The notes under the pieces were generated by a model. That model did no database searches. It was given only the letters and a program-made list of their open reading frames with translations, and was not told the DNA's origin. Positions 37,283 to 38,467 of a stretch of DNA of 52,537 bases are shown here, piece by piece. This DNA comes from Candidatus Nitrosopumilus sp. (lineage in GTDB: Archaea; Thermoproteota; Nitrososphaeria; Nitrososphaerales; Nitrosopumilaceae): positions 1 to 52,537 of the forward strand of contig VMDM01000035.1 of assembly GCA_008080815.1 (NCBI GenBank). The letters are read 5' to 3'. Numbering within the stretch: position 1 is the first letter of the stretch; each line of letters begins with the position of its first letter. Both the position numbers and the translations under genes were made by a program.

Positions 37283-37834
37283 ATGAGCGATCCGTTTAGT
37301 TTCGAGTTACCTGATCCCTCTATAGAACTGAGTGACTCAGAATACGTCAATTTAGTTAATAGAATTAGGGGAAATTTTTTGAGTTATGTTTCTGTACTTG
37401 ATTCAACATTAACCCTAATTATTTCAGACTTATTTTTACGAGATAAGACGGATTTCGCACTTTGGTCAAAAACAGTCTTTGATGAAGACAGAACTGCCTC
37501 TTTTGGAACCAAAATTTTTTGGCTTGGAAGAATTTTAAAAAATCATAAGGATTTTTCAAATTTGATTAATGAAAGTACTAGAATTAAGATTCAACAGAAA
37601 TTAAATGAAATTAGAGAAATAAGAAATGATTTTGCACATAATTTTGCTCACAACAAGGATATAGACCAAAAAAATGTTAAGGAAAGAATTATCGAGTTAT
37701 ATGATTTTGAAGAAGGAATTACAACTACAAAATTTTTCAAGATGCAGGAGATAATGGATATAATTAGTGATTCCTGGATTATGGAGAATTTGAATAATTT
37801 ACTCAAATTAACAAGAGAAATTCGAGAGAGATAA
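37283..37834 (+). CDS. Solo HEPN-like helical protein
   Basis: An all-helical 183-residue protein. It contains IREIRNDFAHNFAHNKD, in which R114-N-D-F-A-H119 matches the RNxxxH (R-x4-H) active-site motif of HEPN ribonucleases. The pattern of two long helices before the motif (ILKNHKDFSNLINESTRIKI) also fits, as does resemblance to MtlR-like proteins, which share the fold. There is no nucleotidyltransferase or other toxin-antitoxin partner beside it. It may therefore be a stand-alone RNase or a non-catalytic HEPN protein. The following gene, 33 bp downstream, encodes a membrane-anchored protein. Confidence 0.6.
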   Translation: MSDPFSFELPDPSIELSDSEYVNLVNRIRGNFLSYVSVLDSTLTLIISDLFLRDKTDFALWSKTVFDEDRTASFGTKIFWLGRILKNHKDFSNLINESTRIKIQQKLNEIREIRNDFAHNFAHNKDIDQKNVKERIIELYDFEEGITTTKFFKMQEIMDIISDSWIMENLNNLLKLTREIRER

Positions 37835-37867: not shown

Positions 37868-38293
37868 ATGCGAAAAATTTTTTTTATAATTCCCGTAACT
37901 TTGATTGTAGTTTTTCTTGTTGTCCTTCTTTCAGAATCACCAAATCAGGATGAAAATTTTTTTCATGTTACTCTAGCAAATTCTAATTCATATGAAAATG
38001 GAATTTTTAGTAAGACGATTTTCTTTAGTCAGGGAAATTATTTTTTTAAATTTGTTCCAAATGGAAGTAGCCCAGAAAAGATTACAATTAGATTGATAGG
38101 AGAAAATCATGATAGAAATTATGAATTTTTTTTAAAAGGTAATCTACAAGAGACAGGAATATCAGAATACTACACATGGGAGTATTTAGGAGAAAATGAA
38201 ATTCAAATAGAGTCTGATCAAAATTTGAAAATTGAGATTGACCCTAATGGACAAACCAATGGTTCGGTATCAGTATACATTAAAGAGAATTAA
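37868..38293 (+). CDS. N-terminally anchored small extracytoplasmic protein
   Basis: The N-terminus KIFFIIPVTLIVVFLVVLL is a single hydrophobic anchor or signal peptide. The remaining 115 residues look beta-rich (NGIFSKTIFFSQGNYFFKF, KITIRLIGENHDRNYEFFL and GSVSVYIKEN) and may be a beta-sandwich. No family is recognised. The stop codon at 38291-38293 overlaps the first bases of the structured intergenic element, so the element could act in the 3' untranslated region of this gene. Confidence 0.68.
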   Translation: MRKIFFIIPVTLIVVFLVVLLSESPNQDENFFHVTLANSNSYENGIFSKTIFFSQGNYFFKFVPNGSSPEKITIRLIGENHDRNYEFFLKGNLQETGISEYYTWEYLGENEIQIESDQNLKIEIDPNGQTNGSVSVYIKEN

Positions 38294-38385
38294 AAGGCGT
38301 AATCCCCTATGTTGCAGAACAATTGAGAGATTCCCTCTCTTTATCAAGCCAAGCTTGACGCCTTTTACGTTCTGCGGGGTTACGC
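38292..38385. ncRNA. Candidate structured non-coding RNA, class unknown, strand undecided
   Basis: Within the 244-bp gap 38294-38537 a long-range stem can be drawn. GTTCTGCGGGGTTACGC (369-385 of 38,000) pairs over all 17 bases with GCGTAA (297-302), CCCC (304-307) and GCAGAAC (314-320). Only a one-base bulge and a six-base bulge interrupt it. Inside lie two hairpins, GAGAG-attcc-CTCTC (325-339) and CAAGC-caa-GCTTG (345-357), making a three-way junction. AAAAGGCGT (292-300) can alternatively pair with ACGCCTTTT (358-366), giving a pseudoknot or a switch. GC content is clearly above the surroundings. A TATA-like tatacattaaa at 38274-38284 supports plus-strand transcription. It does not fit tRNA, 5S, SRP or RNase P RNA as I know them. 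Confidence 0.6.
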
Positions 38386-38429
38386 AAATTTAGTCGATAG
38401 AAATTATGTCCATCAACATAATAATATGT

Positions 38430-38467
38430 AATAATTTTTACTATTTAAAATTTTTTTAAAAATTATT
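38430..38467. repeat. AT-rich inverted repeat in intergenic DNA
   Basis: AATAATTTTTA (38430-38440) and TAAAAATTATT (38457-38467) form a perfect 11-bp inverted repeat with a 16-base spacer that includes a run of seven T. It lies between the structured RNA candidate and the SDR gene at 38538. It may end transcription of the RNA or be chance in AT-rich DNA. Confidence 0.35.

Follow-up and report, generated by a model that had tools for sequence, protein, structure and literature searches.

A predicted stand-alone RNA gene of Nitrosopumilaceae with a conserved nine-codon reading frame

A contig of Candidatus Nitrosopumilus sp. (52,537 nucleotides, the whole of which is the window analysed here) carries a structured element between an SDR gene and a small convergent open reading frame (ORF). 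The locus raises the question of what kind of RNA is encoded there, on which strand, and what that RNA might do. A preliminary description, made from the sequence alone, had read the element on the plus strand at 38292–38385 as an RNA of no known class with a three-way junction.

Structure, strand and identity of the RNA

All of the proposed pairings were found in the window: 38369–38385 (GTTCTGCGGGGTTACGC) pairs with 38297–38302, 38304–38307 and 38314–38320, and the junction holds two hairpins, at 38325–38339 and 38344–38358. The predicted fold far exceeds chance, with −45.7 kcal/mol on the minus strand (z = −6.2 versus shuffles) and −38.3 kcal/mol on the plus strand (z = −4.2). Across 67 distinct divergent sequences, 91% of cells were paired and 33 of the 37 pairs showed double-sided changes. 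The double-sided cells numbered 302, compared with 72 in shuffles and 35–59 in slid controls, in an alignment that was fitted to the covariance model, which favours pairing. A MAFFT alignment (A1) gave a similar result, with 92 double-changed cells versus 32 in shuffles. The pairs are kept family-wide by compensatory change, confirming that the described pairing and three-way junction are real.

The strand, by contrast with the plus-strand reading, is minus. Read on that strand, the helices of the same 67 sequences contain 165 G-U and 60 A-C cells, and the counts swap on the plus strand; because G-U pairs and A-C does not, helix sites drift via G-U only on the minus strand. Gene anatomy agrees, as the TATA box, the start and the U-rich tail all read that way. 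The RNA extends from about 38419 down to 38285, with a promoter reaching ~38449. The structure of the element described at 38292–38385 thus stood, and its extent did not: the RNA runs on to ~38419, adding one further hairpin, and the promoter, a second copy and a nine-codon frame had been missed. Comparison of the copies showed the layout, 5′ to 3′, as a TATA box, an AUG, a nine-codon frame with a hairpin, 3–4 nt, the three-way junction of P1/P2 that carries hairpins A and B, and finally a U-rich tail. On these comparative grounds the locus appears to be a small stand-alone RNA gene of Nitrosopumilaceae on the minus strand, with the following features.

38442–38449, minus strand: TATA box TTTAAATA, with TTAAATA occupying −29 to −23 relative to the first base of the AUG; spacing fixed, kept in nearly all of 179 copies
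38390–38419, minus strand: putative leaderless nine-codon frame (MLMDIISID, stop UAA), AUG at the predicted transcript start; stops vary by A↔G only
38393–38417, minus strand: 5′ hairpin H0, predicted by folding inside the reading frame (38417–38409 with 38401–38393); double-sided changes in 8/8 H0 pairs of A3, with only 68–82% of cells paired
38376–38385, minus strand: P1 5′ strand (GCGUAACCCC), 4 nt past the stop codon; P1 97.1% of cells paired, double-sided changes in 7/10 pairs
38369–38375, minus strand: P2 5′ strand (GCAGAAC); 97.6% paired, double-sided changes in 7/7 pairs
38359–38368, minus strand: junction strand carrying AAAAGGCGU, a possible pairing partner of the 3′ tail; covariation absent within the genus, own-versus-swapped signal weak
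38344–38358, minus strand: hairpin B, differing between copies in both length and sequence; double-sided changes in 7/7 pairs
38325–38339, minus strand: hairpin A (GAGAG-GGAAU-CUCUC) with a GNRA-plus-U pentaloop; 97.1% paired, GNRA plus U in 178/187 copies
38314–38320, minus strand: P2 3′ strand (GUUCUGC), with the P2 covariation
38308–38313, minus strand: six-base bulge (AACAUA) on the 3′ side between P2 and P1; in most copies, length somewhat variable
38297–38307, minus strand: P1 3′ strand (GGGGAUUACGC, one A bulged), with the P1 covariation
38283–38296, minus strand: U-rich 3′ tail, sharing bases with the stop codon of convergent ORF 37868–38293; U-rich in most copies

The U-rich tail is a probable terminator. 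A role of hairpin A as a Shine-Dalgarno mimic was considered and dropped, its loop being mostly a GNRA-like pentaloop.

A pseudoknot or two exclusive folds had also been proposed, AAAAGGCGT (38292–38300) being complementary to ACGCCTTTT (38359–38367). This pairing of the tail with the junction strand is present in the window but found no support within the genus, where it was 89.5% paired, with no double-sided change and no better than shuffles. Tails paired slightly better with their own junction strands than with swapped ones (5.32 versus 4.78, a comparison that ignores relatedness). Matching AAAUGGY/GCCAUUU is present in L239, L240 and L243; the L076 clade has mismatches, and g35 and g36 are mostly without the pairing.

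Rfam 15 returned zero matches to the RNA at the gathering threshold, its only match in the window being a tRNA elsewhere; at E up to 10, only sR52 appeared (E 4.4, 11.8 bits versus a cut-off of 50). Archaeal SRP RNA (RF01857) and RNase P RNA (RF00373) are likewise stand-alone archaeal structured RNAs, but both were ruled out, as covariance models located them as separate genes on other contigs of the same genome (C25 and C19). ARAGORN detected no tmRNA in the window, and no paper on this RNA was found among open-licence papers. The RNA is thus undescribed in the sense that it is absent from Rfam 15 and from the open-licence papers searched, in line with the earlier assignment to no known class.

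Distribution and genomic context

BLASTN identified the RNA in 34 of 61 related genomes, mostly with two copies each; the source genome has one copy in the window and a second at C5:28927–29068. A covariance-model search of other genomes, as the preliminary description had advised, not only recovered homologues but revealed the compensatory changes. Model R1, built from an alignment of 49 copies, matched 222 of 250 Nitrosopumilaceae genomes, including 126 of 131 near-complete ones, and 18 of 22 genera; the genomes searched include incomplete MAGs, and the covariance models usually gave two to three copies per Nitrosopumilaceae genome. Order-level searches yielded matches in 79 of 250 genomes and, with the broader model R2, in 209 of 400, every one Nitrosopumilaceae, a search that very distant relatives could escape. 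Named records carrying the RNA include Nitrosopumilus, Nitrosarchaeum, Nitrosomarinus and Thaumarchaeota archaeon CSP1-1. No viral copies were found with the one pattern searched. Two ancestral-locus copies are decaying, one with a broken frame (L267:2531–2668) and one with an intact frame and lost pairing (L269:2549–2687); both genomes have other copies.

The ancestral locus (locus A) has the order SDR, RNA, small convergent ORF, with the RNA and the SDR gene divergent. A second locus adjoins purP (named by eye from its sequence), and further copies sit elsewhere. Pfam confirmed SDR, inositol-monophosphatase and APS-kinase neighbours; of the flanking genes named previously, the SDR gene was therefore upheld, and the "envelope protein" was not, ORF 37868–38293 having no Pfam match. 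Window ORF 37283–37831 had a weak, below-cut-off match to HEPN_Cthe2314 (E 0.0005).

The preliminary description had offered two options, a cis-acting switch for the SDR gene or a free RNA. A plus-strand switch would suit the position of the element, upstream of the SDR gene, and that strand folds too. It is already contradicted, and in our view extremely improbable: C-A replaces G-U on the plus strand, the RNA has its own minus-strand promoter and diverges from the SDR gene, and it is kept where no SDR gene is adjacent (e.g., L070, L079, L235, L242 and L270) and beside purP and other genes. The free RNA, as a stand-alone gene, is the option that was supported. Alternatively, the RNA might be an antisense regulator of the convergent ORF 37868–38293, whose stop codon it overlaps. 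This overlap arrangement is kept family-wide at the ancestral locus, but other copies adjoin purP and unrelated genes and most of the conserved structure falls outside the overlap, so that we consider antisense regulation very unlikely.

The nine-codon frame

The AUG lies 26 nt below the TATA box centre. A start, exactly nine codons and a stop were present in 179 of 194 distinct copies (AUG in 178, GUG in 1), with UAA, UAG and UGA stops in 111, 48 and 20 of these frames, respectively. The second copy in the source genome encodes MSLVAISNE, compared with MLMDIISID in the window. Among non-RNA TATA sites with AUG at +29, 20 open frames of ≥40 codons were found, and ordinary genes here therefore use the same leaderless layout. 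We infer that the transcript is probably leaderless and the small frame translated.

Parsimony on a tree of 175 RNA bodies placed ~33 steps at positions 2 and 3 of the stop codon, all A↔G and always keeping a stop, and none at position 1. With an A↔G share of 47% elsewhere, the probability of 33 of 33 A↔G steps is ~2e-11, the step counts and this figure being rough. As the 179 frames are related and hence not independent, the 12 frames with <70% identity are a fairer sample; these still have nine codons, compared with 3.6% per frame upon shuffling. The spacer from the stop to P1 is 3–4 nt in 169 of 178 copies and 2–5 nt in all 178. Several exceptions keep a frame of 8 or 10 codons (L234, L271 and L262).

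Steps in codons 2–9 numbered 142, 163 and 123 at positions 1, 2 and 3 (175 sequences), an even spread that leaves no visible selection on residues. By comparison of the copies, then, the frame and its length are conserved and the peptide is not; of the features that mark a dual-function small RNA, a conserved small frame was found, and a peptide sequence under selection was not. The gene could instead be a small mRNA with the nine-residue peptide as product and the structured part as a stabilising 3′ UTR. The frame is indeed conserved as a frame, and among close relatives residue 9 is commonly D or E, and residues 3–4 are commonly K/D. However, there is no third-position excess, residues diverge widely between lineages (MSKDIITID, MLVKPQKMA, MAEKSRQMT and MLVQCRMMD), and the RNA body is much better conserved than the peptide, making such an mRNA unlikely.

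In L064, L067, L077, L095, L103, L127, L145, L180 and L190, the AUG is lost and the hairpin and body are kept; at least two of these genomes have a second copy with AUG. The copies in L064, L067, L077 and relatives are a paralogue without AUG, in which the 5′ hairpin is altered on both sides (UCG/CGA to UUG/CAA). Such preservation of the hairpin by compensatory change despite AUG loss would fit an untranslated structural RNA, the frame being a by-product of the 5′ hairpin beside a fixed transcription start. We regard this as quite unlikely, as the stop varies among all three stops and never becomes sense (175 sequences), and the hairpin position moves between lineages with the frame length staying at nine.

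Translation as a candidate signal

Our preferred explanation, with a probability of about 0.6, is a stand-alone RNA whose leaderless nine-codon frame is translated, translation governing the trans-acting RNA. The comparisons suggest that what counts is the act of translation, with a ribosome that finishes against P1; the peptide may, with less certainty, be a by-product. Given the usual ribosome footprint, a ribosome with the stop codon in its A site would reach lower P1. For the stop codon to enter that site, the base of P1 would thus have to open. The 3′ strand of P1 and the tail could then be released, and translation of the frame could in this way control how the trans-acting RNA folds, how stable it is or how it binds partners. 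This ribosome–P1 coupling is speculative, being drawn from geometry, and the tail–junction pairing as its switch partner lacks covariation in the genus. A more specific version is tentative: possibly, RNA activity depends on translating an arbitrary nine-codon frame, and the RNA is switched or loaded by a ribosome that terminates at P1, where the fixed length of the frame and the spacer place it. The AUG-less copy group (L064 and others) and the possibility that H0 constrains some of the same bases are points against the preferred explanation.

Several known systems resemble parts of this arrangement. In bacterial leader-peptide attenuators, a short frame lies just before an RNA structure that the ribosome can open. 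The short frame directly 5′ of the structure is similar here, but no same-strand gene lies downstream, the next gene at the ancestral locus being convergent. tmRNA likewise combines RNA structure with a short frame, of about ten codons, whereas that of the Nitrosopumilaceae RNA starts from its own AUG at the 5′ end. The closest published parallel is sRNA154 of Methanosarcina mazei, a regulatory small RNA with a leaderless 20-residue small ORF, proposed to be dual-function, whose small protein was reported to be highly conserved (PMC11456600). Both are archaeal small RNAs with a leaderless small ORF; here only frame and length are conserved, the lineage differs, and the likeness is one of description rather than of sequence or structure. 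In Haloferax volcanii, Ribo-seq identified ribosome-associated small RNAs, many without a detected peptide (PMC12482152). These too are archaeal small RNAs with ribosomes, an association that we predict for the RNA here; they are not known to share the fixed-length frame or the Nitrosopumilaceae structure.

The RNA is near-universal in Nitrosopumilaceae and often multicopy, yet no Rfam family or open-licence paper was found for it. Nitrosopumilaceae, marine ammonia oxidisers, rank with the most abundant archaea of the ocean. Selection that fixes the length of a frame and leaves the encoded peptide free to vary is unusual, and points towards translation itself as the signal. For these archaea, with their few genetic tools, the RNA offers a small system in which coupling to the ribosome can be tested. 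If a ribosome at P1 does switch or load the RNA, it would serve these archaea as a gauge of leaderless translation.

Two further groups of copies were observed. A third copy group (L239, L240, L241, L243 and L244) shares a motif like AACAAATGTTNAAAA 30–60 nt upstream of the RNA, perhaps a regulator site. In L249:2573–2712, L255:2523–2661 and L264:2501–2639, the TATA box, the nine-codon frame (e.g., MKKDANSND in L264) and P1 are kept, and the interior differs, without the usual hairpins A and B; the nine-codon frame and P1 may form a module.
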